NCBI GenBank assembly: GCA_015178975.1
Contig: WHVD01000042.1
Location: 425,501 to 489,500 of the forward strand
From: Hysterangium stoloniferum
Taxonomy: Eukaryota; Basidiomycota; Agaricomycetes; Hysterangiales; Hysterangiaceae
Direction: 5' to 3'
Length of the DNA stretch: 64,000 bases
How positions within the stretch are numbered: position 1 is the first letter of the stretch; every line of letters starts with the position of its first letter. Below are positions 47,615 through 56,972 of the stretch, piece after piece. A program made the translations under genes and the position numbers. Under the pieces are notes generated by a model, which made no database searches, had not been told where the DNA came from, and worked only from the letters and a program-made list of their open reading frames with translations.

Positions 47615-49045
47615 TTATAAAGGATTGAGAGGACCGGGTTTGTTCAGATAAGCTTGGTGAAAACCTAAAATGATTTCCGAAGCATTACCGAGCTCTGTAG
47701 CTAGGATCCATGAAGTTTCTTCATCTGTACCTTCATAGCCAGCCCATTTGACCAAATAAAGTAATTTGCATGAGCGTCGGCGATTGTCGATTTTTGAGTC
47801 TAGAATCTCTGATATCTCGAATTCGGGTTCCCCATCGATAATCACGGGTGGGGGTGGTGGTTGTATGCGATCCGGTATATTGTTAGGAACACAAGGTTCT
47901 AACATAGATACATGAAATACTGGGTGCACTGCACGCATGTTGTCGGGGAGCCGAAGCGTCCATGAAAGTGTGCCAGCTTGTGCTATAACTTCAAAAGGAC
48001 CTAAATATTTTTCAGAGAGCTTCTTAGAGGGTCTAGTAGTTCGGAAAAACTCGGCTTTAACGAATACTCGGTCTCCGATCCTAAAGTCAGGAGGTGGAAG
48101 TCGGTTCTTATCCGCAGACCGTTGGTATCGTTCTTGAGCCATTGCGATAGTTTTACGAAGTTCTTGATGTAGCTCGTCAAGGTTGGTAACAAAGTCTTGA
48201 GCACGGGCAGATGCGAGATCGCGTTCCGGGTGGATTGCGATGTTGGGGTTGTAGCCTTTATTTGCGAAGAAAGGCGAAATGCCAGTAGTGGCATTTGGTG
48301 TGTTGTTATATGTGAATTCGGCTAGCGGTAGTAGTGATTTCCAATTGTCTTGTTGATAGTTGCAATAGACACGGATGTATTGTTCCAAGGTTTGATTCAT
48401 GCATTCGGTTTGGCCATCGCCTTCCGGGTGATAGCCGGAAGTGAAGTGTAGCTTCATGTCTAGTGCTTTCCCGAGTGACCTAAAGAAGTGAGAGACAAAC
48501 TCGGATCCACGATCGGATGTGACATGCGACGGAACGCCATGCTTGGAAAATACATGGGTGACAAATAATTCAGCTAACTGTACAGATGTTATCATGTCAT
48601 ATGTTGGAATGAAAATACTTTGCTTTGTGAGCCGATCCACAACAACTAGGATTGCTGTGTGACCTTCGGATACCGGTAGGTGCTCAATGAAATCCATAGA
48701 AATCGAGTTCCAAGGTTTTTCCGGTATTGGTAATTGTTTGAGTAGGCCATATGGTTTGTGTCACTGTGATTTAGAGCGTAAACACATAGTACAGGATTTA
48801 CAATAGTGCTTAACAAAATCTCGGATGCCGGGCCATGTATATTCTCTTCTAATGAGTGAGAGGGTCTTATTGAGGCCGAAATGTCCTGAGATTGGGTGGT
48901 CGTGCTTATGTTGTAGGATTCACAGCCAAAGGGTGTCGGAGTCCGGTACATAAATGCGATTGTCAAGTCTAATGAAACCTTGTGAGTCTAATGACCATCA
49001 GGGTTGATCGGGGTCAGACGGGTTATCGAGGTGTGCTTTGGTGAC
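47615..49045 (-). pseudogene. pol: Element B integrase and chromodomain
   Basis: Minus-strand continuation of pol after the C insertion. The zinc motif region around 48,780-48,900 is broken by stops (SKSQ*HKPYG, the same codon as in A). From 48697 the frame is open for 360 residues: MDFIEHLPVSEGHTAILVVVDRL with the first catalytic Asp, HVTSDRGSEFVSHFF with the second, and HPEGDGQTECMNQTLE with the Glu. A GPY-like module follows (FRIGDRVFVKAEF) and then the chromodomain FEISEILDSKI...LLYLVKWAGYEGTDEETSW. All catalytic residues of integrase are kept here, unlike in A. Confidence 0.88.
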
Positions 49046-49048
49046 TGG

Positions 49049-49668
49049 GGAGGATAGTCACAATTCATTGAATACACGAAATTTTATGAAAAACTCCTCA
49101 TATTTTTAAGTGAGACTATTTCTCCTGGCTATGACTACATGTTTTAGAAATTTATATTTCATTAACCCAAAATTTCATCTTTAAGACTTGTACATTCCCT
49201 TAAAATATGCACAAATGTCATGGTTATACAAGATTATCTGGGTTGTTACCTAATCTTTGGGATAAAATACATTCTCTAGTATCTCCATGACTTTTAAAAT
49301 GTCCACAAACATTATAGTTAACCAAAATTATTTGGGTTATGACTTAATCCTTGGGATGAGATGCATTCTCTTGTATATTATACAAACTTTCAAATGTAGT
49401 TCATATAATTTAAATTTATTTGGTTTAGAAAGTTAACCAGAACTATCTGGCCAACCAATCCATGTTGTGGAATTTATCCCCAAAAGGATAATCTATATAT
49501 GTTTGTTTGACTAACTTTTGTCAGATACAAGATAAATATTAATATTTCCTTATCCTCCAGAATATTATCTGATAGGCTGAATTTGATTAAATATTAATTT
49601 TACAACAAACAATATAAATATATATACTTTAGTGGATAAACAACTTTTAAAGTTTTCGGTTATCCTCC
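49049..49668 (+). repeat. Element C left 620-bp terminal repeat
   Basis: Starts GGAGGATAGTCACAATTC, ends TTTCGGTTATCCTCC, no coding frame. Extremely AT-rich. Confidence 0.9.
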
Positions 49669-49747
49669 TAGATGATGACAAAAGGATGCAAATTAAAAAA
49701 ATGAATTTTTTGACAACCAAATACCCTATGATAGTAATCACTATACA

Positions 49748-50932
49748 ATGCAAGCACACACTGTTTTTAAGATGATGGAATCATTCTTCAATAACTTCAC
49801 AGAAGAACAAGCTGAAAGGGAGGAAAGACTGACAGAAATGTTTTCTAAAAGGGTTTTCAGGATAATGAAATCATTCTTTGGTGAGGTCATGGAAGAACAA
49901 GTTAAAATGGAGGAAAGAGTGACAAAAATTTTTAATATACTTTCTACAAGAGAGAGTAAACTAATGAAAGAAATAGAATCCTTAAAACAACAGTTAAGTG
50001 ATCAAAACAAACACAATAGAAACTATGGTGACCGAGGATTTATCATAAAGAAGCAAAAAGGCTGTATTATTCTAGATCTAGATAATGTAGGTATAATTGA
50101 CTTAGAAGGATATAAACTTAATATTAATGGTAATCCTAGAGCTTTATCTACTATTTATAGGTATAAGGATGACTTTATTGATGTAGAGGAAATTTATTGT
50201 GGATATAACTTTATTACAGATAAAGGAAAGAAACAAAATAATGAAAATAATACATCTTCAGATACTAATGTAGAAGATATTATAGATGATGACATAAAGC
50301 CAAAATCAAGTCTTGATTGGAGTTCCAATTGGATTCCAAAGAATAAAGGAAAGAAACAAAATAATGAAAATAATACAACTTCAGATACTAATGTAGAAGA
50401 TATTATAGATGATGACATAAAGCCAAAATCAAGTCTTGATTGGAGTTCCAATTGGATTCCAAAGAATAAAGGAAAGAAACAAAATAATGAAAATAATACA
50501 TCTTCAGATACTAAGGTAGAAGATAATAATACAGATGAAGATAATAATACAGATGAAGATAATAATACAGATGAAGATAATAATACAGATGAAGATAATA
50601 ATACAGATGAAGATAATAATACAGATGAAGATAATAATACAGATGAAGGTATTACTATAGATGAAGATGGTGATGTTATTATAAATGAAGATGGTGATGA
50701 GATTATTATTACAACTGAGGGTCATATTATTATGACAGATAAAAATAATTACACTATAATCATCAATAAAGATAATTGCACTATTGAAGATGAGGATGGC
50801 TATATTATGGATGTAGATGATGATCTAGAACGTTCAATATTAAAATATAGAAAGAGAGCTGAAAAAGCAAGAGAAAAGAGAGGTAAAGGTGATGGATCTG
50901 GATTGTTGTATAACACACTTCTCTTGACATAA
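49748..50932 (+). CDS. Element C accessory protein 1, repeat-rich (394 aa)
   Basis: I do not recognise this protein. Residues about 1-95 are predicted coiled coil from heptads and charge pattern (EEQAEREERLTEMFSKRV, then a second similar copy, then KLMKEIESLKQQLS). A globular-looking part (KKQKGCIILDLDNVGIIDLEGYKLN) follows. Then comes a 41-residue unit in two full copies and a partial third (containing DDDIKPKSSLDWSSNW), then seven copies of NNTDED, then an acidic and finally basic tail (RKRAEKAREKRGK). Position upstream of the transposase suggests a partner protein, as the second gene of Harbinger elements is; no Myb/SANT motif is visible, so that is only a guess. Confidence 0.7.
   Translation: MQAHTVFKMMESFFNNFTEEQAEREERLTEMFSKRVFRIMKSFFGEVMEEQVKMEERVTKIFNILSTRESKLMKEIESLKQQLSDQNKHNRNYGDRGFIIKKQKGCIILDLDNVGIIDLEGYKLNINGNPRALSTIYRYKDDFIDVEEIYCGYNFITDKGKKQNNENNTSSDTNVEDIIDDDIKPKSSLDWSSNWIPKNKGKKQNNENNTTSDTNVEDIIDDDIKPKSSLDWSSNWIPKNKGKKQNNENNTSSDTKVEDNNTDEDNNTDEDNNTDEDNNTDEDNNTDEDNNTDEDNNTDEGITIDEDGDVIINEDGDEIIITTEGHIIMTDKNNYTIIINKDNCTIEDEDGYIMDVDDDLERSILKYRKRAEKAREKRGKGDGSGLLYNTLLLT
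50222..50524 (+). repeat. 123-bp tandem repeat inside accessory gene 1
   Basis: Units start at 50222, 50345 and 50468; the third is truncated after about 57 bp. The period is a multiple of three, so the frame is kept. Confidence 0.9.
50525..50650 (+). repeat. 18-bp tandem repeat, seven copies
   Basis: Unit AATAATACAGATGAAGAT encodes NNTDED; the last copy ends in Gly. Near-perfect copies at the DNA level suggest recent expansion. Confidence 0.92.
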
Positions 50933-51393
50933 GACAGAGAATCAAGCATCAGTGCTTACAGCACTTTCTCCAATATCACTCTCAATCACATATAACTCAG
51001 AAGGAAAGAAAGCATAGTGTAAAATACTACAAGTCCATGAGAAGAGCCTTAGTAGTATTTTGCAATATGCTTTCCCAACCGAGATTAGACATGCATGATA
51101 GACCGTATAGACCTATACATATAGATGATTATCAAATTAGATTCAATTTATGATACATTGATATTGGCCTAAAAGGAGACATAAACCTTCTTTTGTCATT
51201 TATGTAGTCACAATATAGGGATATTGATGATCTTATTTGGAGAAATCTATTATTTATATAGTTATATTAAGAGTAGATATGAATGAATATATAACCTCTG
51301 GTAGATACTTAAGGGAAGGGATATTGTAAGAAGACATACTTTCAGACATATAAAAATGAAATATTCAATTGTTTAATCTAATTTTATTGCAGC
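50933..51393. other. Spacer between element C genes 1 and 2
   Basis: AT-rich, no frame. It ends TTTATTGCAGC just before the transposase ATG, which looks like a splice acceptor, so an untranslated first exon is possible. Confidence 0.45.
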
Positions 51394-52797
51394 ATGCCTA
51401 CAGCATCTTATAAACAAAAGCTTGAGTTAGAATTTCAAAGCTTAATGAGAGAACACTGGACTTTTCTTAATGAAGACTGGCCAATTGTGGGGACTGAAAA
51501 GTATCATAGAACTGAGTTGAAACCTGTGAAAGATCTTCAAGCAGTAAAACAACTTCTTTTTGACCATCTTGGACCAATTCCTGTATTCTTTTTCCTTGTT
51601 CTTATATTTCCCACTCAAGATTATCCTGGTCCATACAGAAATATTGATAAAGGACTCCTTATCCTCTATCATTTATTAACAGGAAAGACAATAAATGATA
51701 TGAAAAATCACATTCCTTCTTCTAGTTTTGAGAAGCTTCAATCTAATTTCTATAAAAAGAATCAGAAAATTAATAATCAACTCATGAAAGATATATCATT
51801 AATGCTTTTAACTATGTTTTCAAACATAAAAATTAGAATTTTATCAGCAAGAATAAAAAATCCACAAGGTTTCAAGGCTATTACCTTGTTCCTTGATGGA
51901 CATGATACAAGGTTAAGCTGTACTGGTGAGGACAAAGCAGCACAATATTCTTACAAGTTAAAGAAATCTGGATGCCGAACACAGGTAGCTATGGATGTGA
52001 ATGGTATGGTCTTATTTCTATCTAAATCAGAGCCATGTGCTCAAAATCCAGATGGACCAATGTTTACAAAATTACATATAGAAAGATTTATACATGAAGA
52101 TGACTGTATGGGACTTGATGGAGCATATAAACCATATATCAATAAGATTGTTGAAATTACAGATCTAAAAGAACATAACTTTATATGTCCTATTCGGAAA
52201 CCTAGAGGTGTTGATTTAACTCCAGAGGAAAGTAATTATAATACAAAATTTGGAAGTTTCAGATCTCAGATTGAACATCTATTTGGTCATATAGGACATA
52301 AATTTGAAAGGTTTAATAATAAATCTGTGATTAGAACTTATTCCCCTGAAGTTTTTACCCTACAATTTAAACTAGCATGTTTATTATTGAATATACAGAA
52401 ATTTGTTGAGATGGGTGACATAAAACCTCAGCCACATCATTCTATGTGGATGGAAGATAATTTTGACTATAGAAAAGATGAAACAGAAGAATTAACATCC
52501 ATAATAACATTGACAGATCAGATATCATTAAATACTTCTGCATTAAGGGCTCAAGATCTACTTTTACAAGGAATGGAGATTGATACTAACAATCACAACC
52601 ATCCATTCCAAAAAAAGAGAAAATTATCAGAGCACCAAGAGTATGAAGTTGAAAGCATATTAAAACATAGAGAAGTTAATGGGAAGATGCAATATCTTGT
52701 AAAATGGAAAGGATACTTCCATAAAACTTGGGAACCAGAAGAAAGCTTCAATACTCAAGGATGCATTGATGACTATTGGAATATGGAGCAGGACTAA
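51394..52797 (+). CDS. Element C transposase, PIF/IS5-like DDE with C-terminal chromodomain (467 aa)
   Basis: Cut-and-paste transposase of the DDE_4 (PIF/Harbinger/IS5) type by motif. An N-terminal helical region of about residues 80-150 includes LLTGKTINDMKNHIPSSSF. Probable catalytic residues: Asp168 in TLFLDGHDTRLS, Asp242 in CMGLDGAYKPYI, Glu294 in SFRSQIEHLFGHIGHKFERF (the RxxIEHxFG signature). A basic KKRK at 407-410 could be a nuclear signal. Residues about 417-462 form a chromodomain (YEVESILKHREVNG, MQYLVKWKGYFHKTWEPEE), normally a reader of methylated histone tails. The frame is open and complete. A 3-bp target duplication agrees with this superfamily. From memory, similar AT-rich DDE proteins are numerous in Rhizophagus (Glomeromycotina). 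The frame being intact suggests recent activity. Confidence 0.82.
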   Translation: MPTASYKQKLELEFQSLMREHWTFLNEDWPIVGTEKYHRTELKPVKDLQAVKQLLFDHLGPIPVFFFLVLIFPTQDYPGPYRNIDKGLLILYHLLTGKTINDMKNHIPSSSFEKLQSNFYKKNQKINNQLMKDISLMLLTMFSNIKIRILSARIKNPQGFKAITLFLDGHDTRLSCTGEDKAAQYSYKLKKSGCRTQVAMDVNGMVLFLSKSEPCAQNPDGPMFTKLHIERFIHEDDCMGLDGAYKPYINKIVEITDLKEHNFICPIRKPRGVDLTPEESNYNTKFGSFRSQIEHLFGHIGHKFERFNNKSVIRTYSPEVFTLQFKLACLLLNIQKFVEMGDIKPQPHHSMWMEDNFDYRKDETEELTSIITLTDQISLNTSALRAQDLLLQGMEIDTNNHNHPFQKKRKLSEHQEYEVESILKHREVNGKMQYLVKWKGYFHKTWEPEESFNTQGCIDDYWNMEQD

Positions 52798-53071
52798 TTT
52801 TAAAACAATATTCATGGTACATCTTCATATATTCAGTATTTTAAAAATACTCAGGTATAGATTATACTATTCTATATTTTCATCATCTACTATTAGACCA
52901 AATCTTGGTAATATTTTATTATTTTTTTTTAAAATACCATTAAATTTATTATTATTCTACTATATTATATATTATATCTGATTATATTAAGAATGAAAAA
53001 TGAATTATTCCAACTTTAAATATCTTAGGTAGGATATAAGCACATATCACTTACAATCTTTCCAAATCAAT

Positions 53072-53563
53072 ATGTCCACCTGTTCAACTTCACTTTTTAT
53101 TCAACAAACTGCATATAACATTTTTGTCCCTAACAAAATGGTAACTATTACCAGAACTAGGAGGCCAAACCCTTACATTCCAAAATGTCATCAAATGCCA
53201 ATTGATGGTTCTAAGGAAATCACATATTACATCAATTATGATGATTTGGGACTAAGTCCCCCATATAAATTTCAAGATGAGATTGATTTTCCTTTCTTAT
53301 CTAATGAAATGGGACATTACAAGTTTATAGGGCTTGAACCAATCCCTCTGAGGTCATATGACAATGTCCAGATGTACAATGCAGTCTTTACTCACCATAA
53401 CATGGCTATAGTAGATAAAATCAGTTTTGAGGTGTTTGTATCTTTTAGAAAAAGGATTGATGAATACCCAGTTGAAGAGAGAGTTGAAAGAGTTGAAGAA
53501 GTTCCAACATCTTCTGGTTGGTGGAAGGGACTACTTTCTTATTTCTGTGTTTGTTATTTCTAA
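53072..53563 (+). CDS. Element C accessory protein 2 (163 aa)
   Basis: Not recognised. The open frame starts MSTCSTSLFIQQTAYN; an inner ATG at the MVTITRTRRPNP segment is an alternative start. The middle is rich in Pro and Tyr (YYINYDDLGLSPPYKF, GLEPIPLRSYDNV). A Glu/Arg/Val helix (PVEERVERVEEVP) precedes a short hydrophobic, aromatic and Cys-rich C-terminus (WWKGLLSYFCVCYF) that could be a membrane or protein contact. It shares codon bias and AT-richness with the transposase, so it belongs to element C. Confidence 0.6.
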   Translation: MSTCSTSLFIQQTAYNIFVPNKMVTITRTRRPNPYIPKCHQMPIDGSKEITYYINYDDLGLSPPYKFQDEIDFPFLSNEMGHYKFIGLEPIPLRSYDNVQMYNAVFTHHNMAIVDKISFEVFVSFRKRIDEYPVEERVERVEEVPTSSGWWKGLLSYFCVCYF

Positions 53564-53970
53564 CTGTCATTAGCATTTGGCTGCAAATTTTAAAAGTTAT
53601 ATAATTGTTAATACAATTTCAGAAAAAAAGTGGAATATTTTGATACAATATAATAAAAATATTACATGAGGTAAAATGAAAATACATGTATTCAATAACT
53701 AATTATAAGTATTTTGTGAATACAATCCCCATATTCTAAAATGACAGAAATTATGAAATCATTTGCCCAAAAGTTTATCTTTGTATAATAAATATTGGAA
53801 AATCACCTGGCATAAGTAAAAGAAAACAGAAATGTAAAAAAAGAAAAGATTATGAAAATAGAGAAGAAGGTAAAAAGATTTTACATAACTTAAAAAAACT
53901 TAAGTTTATATGGTGATGCTAATGTGATATAAATTTTATATTGTTCTAAATACTTTTAAAAGTTAATGTA
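53564..53970. other. Element C 3' non-coding region
   Basis: Very AT-rich, no frame; leads into the right terminal repeat. Confidence 0.5.
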
Positions 53971-54590
53971 GGAGGATAGTCACAATTCATTGAATACACG
54001 AAAGTTTATGAAAAACTCCTCATATTTTTAAGTGAGACTATTTCTCCTGGCTATGACTACATGTTTTAGAAATTTATATTTCATTAACCCAAAATTTCAT
54101 CTTTAAGACTTGTACATTCCCTTAAAATATGCACAAATGTCATGGTTATACAAGATTATCTGGGTTGTTACCTAATCTTTGGGATAAAATACATTCTCTA
54201 GTATCTCCATGACTTTTAAAATGTCCACAAACATTATAGTTAACCAAAATTATTTGGGTTATGACTTAATCCTTAGGATGAGATGCATTCTCTTGTATAT
54301 TATACAAACTTTCAAATGTAGTTCATATAATTTAAATTTATTTGGTTTAGAAAGTTAACCAGAACTATCTGGCCAACCAATCCATGTTGTGGAATTTATC
54401 CCCAAAAGGATAATCTATATATGTTTGTTTGACTAACTTTTGTCAGATACACGATAAATATTAATATTTCCTTATTCTCCAGAATATTATCTGATAGGCT
54501 GAATTTGATTAAATATTAATTTTACAACAAACAATATAAATATATATACTTTAGTGGATAAACAACTTTTAAAGTTTTCGGTTATCCTCC
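53971..54590 (+). repeat. Element C right 620-bp terminal repeat
   Basis: Same length and orientation as the left copy, about four single-base differences (for example near 54,004 and 54,275). Confidence 0.9.
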
Positions 54591-54593
54591 TGG

Positions 54594-56972
54594 GTCTAAT
54601 GGAATTGCCGATAGTATACCTTGATGTAACTTTTCGGTATCCATAAGGATAACACTTCGCAAGACTGGATGAATGAGGTAAGTGGCTTGGATAGACGCAG
54701 ACAGTTGTTCCGATGAAAACATAGGCTTGAAATTATGTGGGTTAACTGTGGCGTAGTCGCTACTCACCTCTTTAGGATAGACGTCCCATTGTCTAGTCAT
54801 AGCGTCGGGTTTTCCACCAAGGTGGCCGGGACGGAAGTGAATTACCATGTTGAAAGCAGAGAGGTATTCGGACCATCGAGCTTGTCAACGGGTGAGAAGT
54901 TTTGTGGTTGAAAAGTAAACTAAATTTTTGTGGTCTGTAATAACATCTACTGGGTGGGCCGAGCCTTCCAAATAATGTCGCCATGTCTTGAAAGCTTCAA
55001 ATATTGCAAGTAGTTCCTTATCGTGAACGTCATAGTTGAGTTCGGGCGCCGAAAATGTGCGAGACAGAAAAGCTACTGGGTGTACTTCACCATTGGTGTC
55101 CAGAATGGACAGTATTGCAGCAAGCGCATAGTCTGAGGCATCAGTTTCCACGATGAGTTGAACGTCGGGCTTCCAGTGCGACAAAATAGGGGCAGATGTA
55201 AACGCACTTTTCACTTCCTGGAATGCCGATCGGCATTCTTCGGAGAAATTCCACAGGGCGTCTTTACGAGTAAGATGAGTGAGCGGAATGGTAATTTTTG
55301 AGTAGTTGTGAATGAAACGACGATAAAAATTGGCGAAGCCTAAAAAGGATTGAATATCCTTAACCTTTCGGGGTTCCAGCCAATCTTGAATGACTTGAAT
55401 TTTAGAGTCGTCCATGCGGAGACCGTCTGGTCCCATCATAAACCCTAAATATTCAACCATATCGACATCAAAGGAACATTTTTTACCATTCGCAAAAAGA
55501 CCATGTTTTCGGAGTCTTTGGAGAACTTCACGAACATGTTCGTCATGAAGTGTAGGATCTTCGGAGAATATGAGGATGTCGTCTAAGTACACAATGACAA
55601 AAACATCGAGGAGGTTGGAAAAAACGTCGTTGATAAAACATTGAAAGACCGACGGAGCGTTGGTGAGGCCAAAAGGCATTACTAACCATTCAAAGGAGCC
55701 ATAGCGAGTGCGAAAAGCCGTTTTCCATTTGTCGCCTTCGGCGATCTGAACCAAATGATAGGCGTGCTTGAGATCTATCTTTGTATAGATTCGGGCCTTC
55801 CGAGGGGCATCGAGTAGATCGGAGATTAGTGGTAATGGGTACTTGTCTTTTCGAGTGATCGCATTTAGTCCTCGAAAGTCAACGCAAAGTCGAAGGGAAC
55901 CGTCTTTTTTCCGAACAAATAGGACAGGGGCTCCATAAGGAGACTTTGAGGTTTGGATAAAACCTATAGCCAAATGTTCGTCCAAGAAATCTCAGATAGC
56001 CAATAATTCGGACTGTGAGAGAGGATAAACTGGGCCTAGGGGCGGATGTGAACCATCTTCAATATCAATTTTCAAATCGTAAGGCCTGTGAGGGGCGAGT
56101 CGATCTGCTTTTTGTTTACTGAATACATCTGCAAATTCATGGTATTTTTTGGGAACACCTTCCAAATCTGCGATCGGTTCAGCCACCGGGGAAGCAAAGC
56201 GACCGGTGACTTTGTCAACTTTAAGATTGACTGTCAATGCTTGGGAGCCGTCCAACTTGATGGCTCTCATAAAAGCTGCGGCATTTATTAGAGAGACGGG
56301 TGGCGGAGAGCTCGGATTTGCCACTAGGGCCGGAGGTGCTGTAGAGGCCATATTTGCTGAAACAGGCGGAAATGGACCAGTCGTATCGGGTGCCAACGGG
56401 GTTCGGAAATGGATACTGCCCAATACCCAATCAATCAACGGATTGTAGCGGGTGAGCCAGTTATGTCCTAGAACCACGGAGCAACTCGGGTCCAACTGTG
56501 TTACAAAAAACGTAACTGTCTGAAAGGTTCCACATGGGAACCGAAGTCGGAGTTCGCAGGCTTGCGAGATTACGGAGTTTGAGGTACCATCAAAGAGTCG
56601 GAGCGGAATCGGATCTATTGCATAGGTTTTTAACTGATTTTTTCGGGAAAAACTTGTATCTATAAAACAATGGGTTGAACCTGAATCTATGAGAGCTCGA
56701 AAAGTGAGACTCCCGAGAGGTTCCGAAGTAAGATTTATGAACAAAGAATTAGGATCATACAAGGCGGATGCGTTAAGATGACAATTTTCCGGTGTGCGAG
56801 GAGATTCAACGCAACTCTCCAACTGCACGGAATCCAGAGAGTTGCTTAATCTTTTTTCGACTCGGTAGCCGGCTTGGCCAGTTGTGAGGTCGTGGCCGTA
56901 TTGGCCGATCAGGCTTTTGTGGCTTTTGGGCATGCAGCGACTCGGTGTCCGGGATCTGCGCACAACAAACAA
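54594..56972 (-). pseudogene. pol: Element B pol, upstream part (protease to RNase H)
   Basis: Minus strand. Protease has FRALIDSGSTHCFIDTSF with the DSG active site, then VVLGHNWLTRYNPLIDW. A TGA after LSQSELLAI (expected Arg of the IRDFLDEHL motif, CGA to TGA) splits it from reverse transcriptase. RT contains [63 protein letters not shown] and the VYLDDILIFSED catalytic block. RNase H follows (TDASDYALAAILS, YDVHDKELLAI). Beyond LLTR another stop, then [22 protein letters not shown], before element C interrupts it. Confidence 0.88.

Follow-up and report, generated by a model that had tools for sequence, protein, structure and literature searches.

An autonomous-looking DDE DNA transposon of the fungus Hysterangium stoloniferum, very probably from a lineage that carries long terminal direct repeats

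Introduction

PIF/Harbinger DNA transposons duplicate a TWA target on insertion and encode a second, Myb/SANT-like protein. Long terminal direct repeats (LTDRs) are described, together with a Kolobok transposase, for KolobokP of seven animal phyla (Kojima and Bao, 2022, PMC9587614), an element that the paper presents as unlike any other DNA transposon in having them. The Kolobok transposase is characterized there by a C/DxxH signature between its second D and its E and by a CCHC zinc finger downstream of the first D. Here we describe a unit with LTDRs and a DDE transposase of another type in the basidiomycete Hysterangium stoloniferum, located in a 64,000-nucleotide stretch (contig WHVD01000042.1, positions 425,501 to 489,500, forward strand) that we refer to as the window. 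We conclude that the unit looks autonomous and very probably belongs to a lineage of DDE DNA transposons bounded by long terminal direct repeats, in which the repeats would be capable of moving alone and the unit would have moved whole. This reading is preferred because each repeat possesses a complete pair of inverted ends, the unit lies inside one 3-bp duplication, and repeats found alone (solo repeats) lie in duplications of their own.

Results

The unit is a single precise insertion into a chromovirus

The features of the locus are as follows; subfamily 2 is a second group of units described below.

49049..54590, plus strand: full unit, two 620-bp direct repeats around an interior with three open reading frames (ORFs)
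49046..49048, no strand: left copy of the outer target-site duplication TGG (from the sequence and the empty site)
49049..49668, plus strand: left long terminal direct repeat (LTDR1), 620 bp, starts GGAGGATA, finishes TATCCTCC
49669..53970, plus strand: interior INT1, opens TAG, closes GTA
49748..50932, plus strand: ORF1, encoding an acidic protein of 394 aa and containing tandem repeats of 123 bp and 18 bp
51394..52797, plus strand: transposase, 467 aa, DDE_Tnp_4 core (D168, D242, E294) and C-terminal chromodomain (417-463)
53072..53563, plus strand: ORF3, 163 aa, an ORF with related copies in subfamily 2
53971..54590, plus strand: right LTDR1, 620 bp, starts GGAGGATA, finishes TATCCTCC
54591..54593, no strand: right copy of the outer duplication TGG (from the sequence and the empty site)
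47615..48697, minus strand: interrupted chromovirus, integrase and chromodomain part (ORF and domain matches)
54885..55985, minus strand: interrupted chromovirus, reverse transcriptase and RNase H part (ORF and domain matches)

The original prediction had proposed this anatomy, and its elements were recovered: direct repeats of exactly 620 bp that differ at four positions, the 8-bp inverted ends GGAGGATA/TATCCTCC on both of them, three plus-strand genes in between, and a TGG duplicated only on the outside, the inner flanks being TAG 3' of the left repeat and GTA 5' of the right one. It had also placed the insertion inside a chromovirus, parts of which do lie on both flanks. When the two flanks were joined with a single TGG into a 120-base query and the best 40 of 929 candidates were scored, the empty site was uninterrupted in all 40 chromovirus places at 97-99% identity (39 over positions 1-120 and one over 2-120). 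Because the joined flanks align unbroken at every scored place, the unit in the window is a single precise insertion into a minus-strand chromovirus. The nearby reverse transcriptase and integrase belong to this interrupted chromovirus and lie outside the unit, and since none of the three interior ORFs has a reverse transcriptase or integrase match we reject the reading of the unit as an LTR (long terminal repeat) retrotransposon.

Full units occur in two subfamilies

A transposase search of the genome (111 Mb in 554 contigs) gave 93 matches, with 91 of 501 candidates scored. In the first group, the four longest members besides the window's are 79-82% identical to it; the second, subfamily 2, stands at about 50% identity, retains several open frames of 458 codons and has a 675-bp repeat of its own, LTDR2. 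Contig C141 (locus L071) carries a full unit of the first group inside a TAA duplication. In subfamily 2, the C152 unit possesses two LTDR2 copies identical across 675 bp and an outer AAT, and when the left repeats of C212, C442, C1 and C71 were predicted from the spacing in C113, repeat sequence was found at all four places. The outer duplications are ATT in C113, AAT in C71, TAT in both C1:500215 and C442, and TTA in C537. Full units inside outer duplications had been named as support for the original prediction, and every unit whose two outer flanks were readable has a 3-bp duplication there (8/8: the window, C141, C152, C113, C71, C1:500215, C442 and C537), a count that does not extend to the left ends of further subfamily-2 copies (C441, C464 and C177, for example).

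The inner boundaries are likewise conserved. All 11 first-group right ends read whose interior runs to its end have the interior/repeat junction GTA/GGAGGAT; these represent about eight independent sites, as C321, C315, C133 and C487 share one right flank. The subfamily-2 junction pattern occurs at 19 places with at most one mismatch and at three more with two or three, and these 19 include each of the 17 subfamily-2 transposase places extending to the 3' end (lists compared by eye), though the pattern includes the first bases of the repeat and so cannot count interiors without one. Interiors occurring without their repeats had been named as the finding that would speak for a chance product, and at the right ends just described a repeat follows in every case. 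On the left, the inner flanks open with TA in four of four read. LTDR1 and LTDR2 have only about 22 terminal bases in common, and the common end, GGAGGATA-C-GAAAACT, which LTDR1 has on its right and LTDR2 on its left, is a candidate transposase site. Judged from these comparisons, the full unit is a conserved architecture across two subfamilies and not a fresh composite.

These data bear on the possibility that two insertions of a miniature inverted-repeat transposable element (MITE) simply landed on either side of unrelated genes. The repeat is indeed an abundant MITE-like sequence, and TAG and GTA on the inside might each be half of a duplication left by an ancient insertion, yet such a coincidence would have to yield eight outer-duplicated units in two subfamilies at 50% transposase identity with the same right inner boundary. 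Moreover, true neighbors look different: on C64, where two LTDR1 copies lie 4.4 kb apart on the same strand, each copy is flanked by a duplication of its own, unlike the repeats of full units. We therefore reject chance neighboring insertions for the window unit as very improbable. Neighboring MITE insertions may have been the first origin of the lineage. Another pair of repeats lies 5.5 kb apart on C24.

Several loci have the same flanks on different contigs and are segmental duplications or unmerged haplotypes (L062/L063/L064/L065 on C321, C315, C133 and C487; L011/L012/L013; C152 and C332). At L035 (C2:158650-160055 region), an LTDR-like repeat begins exactly at its terminal base inside the ORF3 of an interior copy, with CAT before it and CAA after it, as if the repeat end had guided a deletion or an insertion there.

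Solo repeats have duplications of their own

The left end of LTDR1 (26 bases, at most three mismatches) occurs 571 times in the genome, against zero occurrences of the reversed control. When the best 40 of 986 candidates for the repeat were scored, 30 loci resulted, of which two belong to the window. Solo 620-bp copies with their own duplications had been named as support for the original prediction, and 25 of the 28 other loci have a perfect 3-bp duplication; no interior sequence was present within 1.5 kb of any of the 28. For an independent set we removed two loci repeating the flanks of L011 and added a diverged second copy in L002 (n = 27). In this set 24 copies match at 3 bp, compared with a shuffled mean of 1.8 (maximum 11), and none at 4 bp. 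The target consensus is C-NWN-G, with the preceding C in 15 of 24, A or T in the middle in 21 of 24 and the following G in 13 of 24. By these sequence criteria LTDR1 is a mobile-looking unit by itself.

Could the solo repeats all be recombination scars, left when an interior is deleted as in solo LTRs, the repeat never moving alone? Such scars would also keep the outer 3-bp duplication, as seen, and recombination at some rate is expected between direct and often nearly identical repeats. The numbers argue otherwise: there are 820 LTDR2 left ends for 19 interior junctions, and 25 solo LTDR1 loci, three of which share their flanks, have at most 10 of 620 positions different from the window's left repeat, whereas the only full unit found that close is the window's. 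Among these near-window loci are L002 and L003, which carry the same sequence at different sites, one difference away from the window's left repeat. A sequence pattern of this kind is that of a burst of LTDR1 solo copies. In addition, each repeat has a complete pair of ends. Because solo ends so far outnumber interior junctions and close full units, independent movement of the repeat is the more likely source, and we regard an origin of all solo copies as scars as unlikely.

Repeats of one unit tend to resemble each other

When the left and right repeats of six subfamily-2 units (C152, C71, C442, C1, C212 and C537) were paired in all 720 ways, pairing each with its own partner gave the smallest total distance, several left repeats and the right repeat of C212 having been read only in part; C113 was left out since 88 bases of its left repeat had been read and ties were many. 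Among the best 40 of 1108 candidates, the partner of the C1 repeat is the nearest (1145 versus 1105 bits; 98% identity, versus 96% for the next copy). The C152 partner is identical, as is a C332 copy with the same right flank, probably the duplicated C152 locus, and the next copy scores 1191 versus 1218 bits. The best total for own partners suggests that something re-homogenizes the repeats. Furthermore, LTDR1 and LTDR2 hardly align, yet the partners within each unit do, so that both repeats of a unit would have been renewed together at some point.

A simpler account, without any homogenization step, is that partners are alike merely because both come from the currently active burst of repeats. 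The window speaks for this, its left and right repeats being one and three differences from L002, the most central solo sequence. Against it stand own-unit pairing surpassing all 719 other pairings, the closeness of the C1 repeats to each other rather than to the next copy scored, and the short end common to LTDR1 and LTDR2, which means that both sides changed together. We consider this account possible, though rather improbable. In the reading we prefer, some recombination step would keep partners alike over evolutionary time, either through conversion between the repeats or through loss and regain of the interior via a one-repeat circle. A more tentative extension, which we rate as less likely than not, is an LTR-like life cycle in which the direct repeats evolved independently of KolobokP and the interior passes time and again through a single-repeat state, as a circle or a conversion tract, to re-enter solo repeats dispersed over the genome. 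If this were true, solo repeats would serve as docking sites as well as being offspring, and the likeness of partners would be accounted for.

The transposase joins a DDE_Tnp_4 core to a chromodomain

For the window's transposase, two Pfam families score above their cut-offs, DDE_Tnp_4 with E 2.2e-7 and Chromo with E 3.9e-12 (residues 417-463), in agreement with the predicted D..D..E core and chromodomain. We aligned it with one subfamily-2 copy and 16 database relatives (n = 18). D168, D242 and E294 are kept in all 18 and all match PF13359 (DDE_Tnp_4), and 14 have the chromodomain. The C/DxxH signature is absent from all 18, and we therefore reject membership in Kolobok. An NCBIfam IS5 model matches only weakly, far below its cut-off. 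Run by itself, Foldseek gave no match at E 0.001 or better, the 50 rows listed being chromodomains; a second structure comparison matched the DDE core, and the absence of a Harbinger structure among its listed matches says nothing either way.

A database search gave 255 relatives at E 0.001 or better. Most of the 120 listed lack an organism name, and those named are fungi (Mortierella, Apophysomyces, Cunninghamella, Rhizomucor, Linnemannia, Dissophora, Gamsiella and Haplosporangium). Two scans of viral contigs revealed no relatives. In a predicted protein of Cunninghamella blakesleeana (P0065), a retroviral-type aspartyl protease domain is joined to a related transposase with chromodomain; this may be a genuine fusion or reflect an erroneous gene model. 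In the window's transposase, the chromodomain, which has Y417, W438 and Y441, is likely to bind methylated histone H3, and it may direct insertion to heterochromatin, which the original prediction regarded as plausible. Chromovirus pol lies within 1.5 kb of 8 of the 28 solo LTDR1 loci, a figure with no background rate to compare it with.

Accessory ORFs and nested sequences

Neither ORF1 nor ORF3 matched a Pfam family above cut-off, a Myb/SANT-like second protein included. ORF1 (49748-50932) contains 123-bp tandem units (two full ones 99% alike, plus one incomplete) and a series of 18-bp units that encode acidic NNTDED repeats. A protein search with ORF3 returned none of eight candidates at E 0.001, and its structure model is poor (predicted local distance difference test 43) and unusable. 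The ORF3 cassette spans window positions 52939-53602, with a counterpart at L073:4464-5127. In the four subfamily-2 copies aligned the ORF3 protein is 73-78% identical, compared with 50% for the transposases, and there the gene precedes the transposase, is read from the other strand and is bracketed by direct repeats of about 25 bp; L039 and L042 have no cassette and a single copy of the 25-bp sequence. From this arrangement the cassette looks like a separately acquired insertion.

Subfamily 2 also encodes a 210-aa protein (L073:5175-5807) with no Pfam match above cut-off. Its D...ExK-like stretch, identified by eye, presumably recalls PD-(D/E)XK nucleases; no nuclease family was matched by Pfam in the scanned ORFs, although diverged nucleases could escape such detection. 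Two relatives of the protein were found, P0121 and one Hysterangium stoloniferum protein, and P0121 and the transposase relative P0008 (longest contig 2983 bases for each) may be neighbors in another organism. The interior of the C537 unit contains an inverted palindrome (L073:6225-6824; about 600 bp, 89% identity), with a similar one in C152, and a probable LTR element with identical 390-bp repeats (L076:2157-6613) is nested in an ORF of the C152 unit.

Discussion

The original prediction saw in this locus a repeat mobile by itself and a pair of repeats with cargo moving as one, and the duplications around solo repeats and full units support both parts. In the mechanism we envisage, the interior transposase would move the whole unit by pairing its two outermost ends, and a repeat as a MITE by pairing the two ends of that repeat.

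Several observations weigh against this picture. No activity was observed, and neither a clean excision of a single repeat nor an empty ancestral site of a solo copy was seen. Solo loci L009, L014 and L019 (3/28) have no perfect duplication. The incomplete right repeat of C212 makes its outer duplication unreadable, and unit C1:1534149 (L072) has a right repeat and no left one in the 6.4 kb read. Repeat lengths are unequal in C141 (781/511 bp) and C537 (370/593 bp), and the left repeat of C141 is absent from the best 40 hits scored for its right repeat. The C442 left repeat is equally close to the C71 right repeat and to its own partner. Finally, homogenization is not universal: in the window, the left repeat is separated from solo copies by one difference and from its partner by four. 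Taken together, the sequences suggest that repeats tend to be kept alike within units, although not in every unit.

With its hundreds of copies, the element offers a natural system of a master and its MITEs, and it shows how direct repeats can mislead annotation pipelines that rely on them to call LTR elements. It shares with LTR retrotransposons the long direct terminal repeats, the solo repeats and the frequent likeness of partners, and differs in its lack of a reverse transcriptase or integrase match, in the transposon ends on each repeat and in its DDE DNA transposase. Bacterial composite transposons and IS26-type translocatable units, in part as outlined in PMC9587614, similarly have two direct mobile elements that bracket cargo and can move together; here, by contrast, it is the interior that carries the transposase, and diverged copies keep the same plan.

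The DDE_Tnp_4 match, the 3-bp duplication and the short inverted ends recall PIF/Harbinger and bacterial IS5. This kinship had been predicted and stands as far as the domain (18/18) and the duplication length (8/8) are concerned. A strict TWA target does not, since TWA is found in none of the 24 LTDR1 solo duplications and in two of the eight units (TAA and TTA). The long direct repeats and the chromodomain set the element further apart, and Pfam matched no Myb-like second protein in ORF1 or ORF3.

The closest likeness is to KolobokP as described by Kojima and Bao (2022). Both have long direct repeats, each with its own inverted ends, around an interior that carries the transposase; the repeats are about 450 or 660 bp there and 620 and 675 bp in our clearest units, solo repeats are abundant in both, with duplications of 3-5 bp there and exactly 3 bp here, and the ends are 5'-RR and YY-3'. 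KolobokP also encodes a nuclease, with which the 210-aa protein of subfamily 2 may be compared. The differences lie in the proteins: according to the same source the KolobokP transposase has C/DxxH and zinc fingers and usually a His-Me finger nuclease as companion, whereas the present one has DDE_Tnp_4 with a chromodomain and no C/DxxH, named relatives in fungi and other accessory ORFs. In literature titles and abstracts, a scope outside which lie most subscription journals and Repbase, we found no other DNA transposon lineage with this plan. Apparently, then, it was known before only from KolobokP of animals, and the fungal element is a second, convergent lineage. With another transposase type in another kingdom, the LTDR plan would be a repeatable solution and not a one-off, and two apparently independent cases can be compared as to why a complete small transposon is kept at each end, how a unit escapes break-up by its own repeats, and how these stay alike without reverse transcription.

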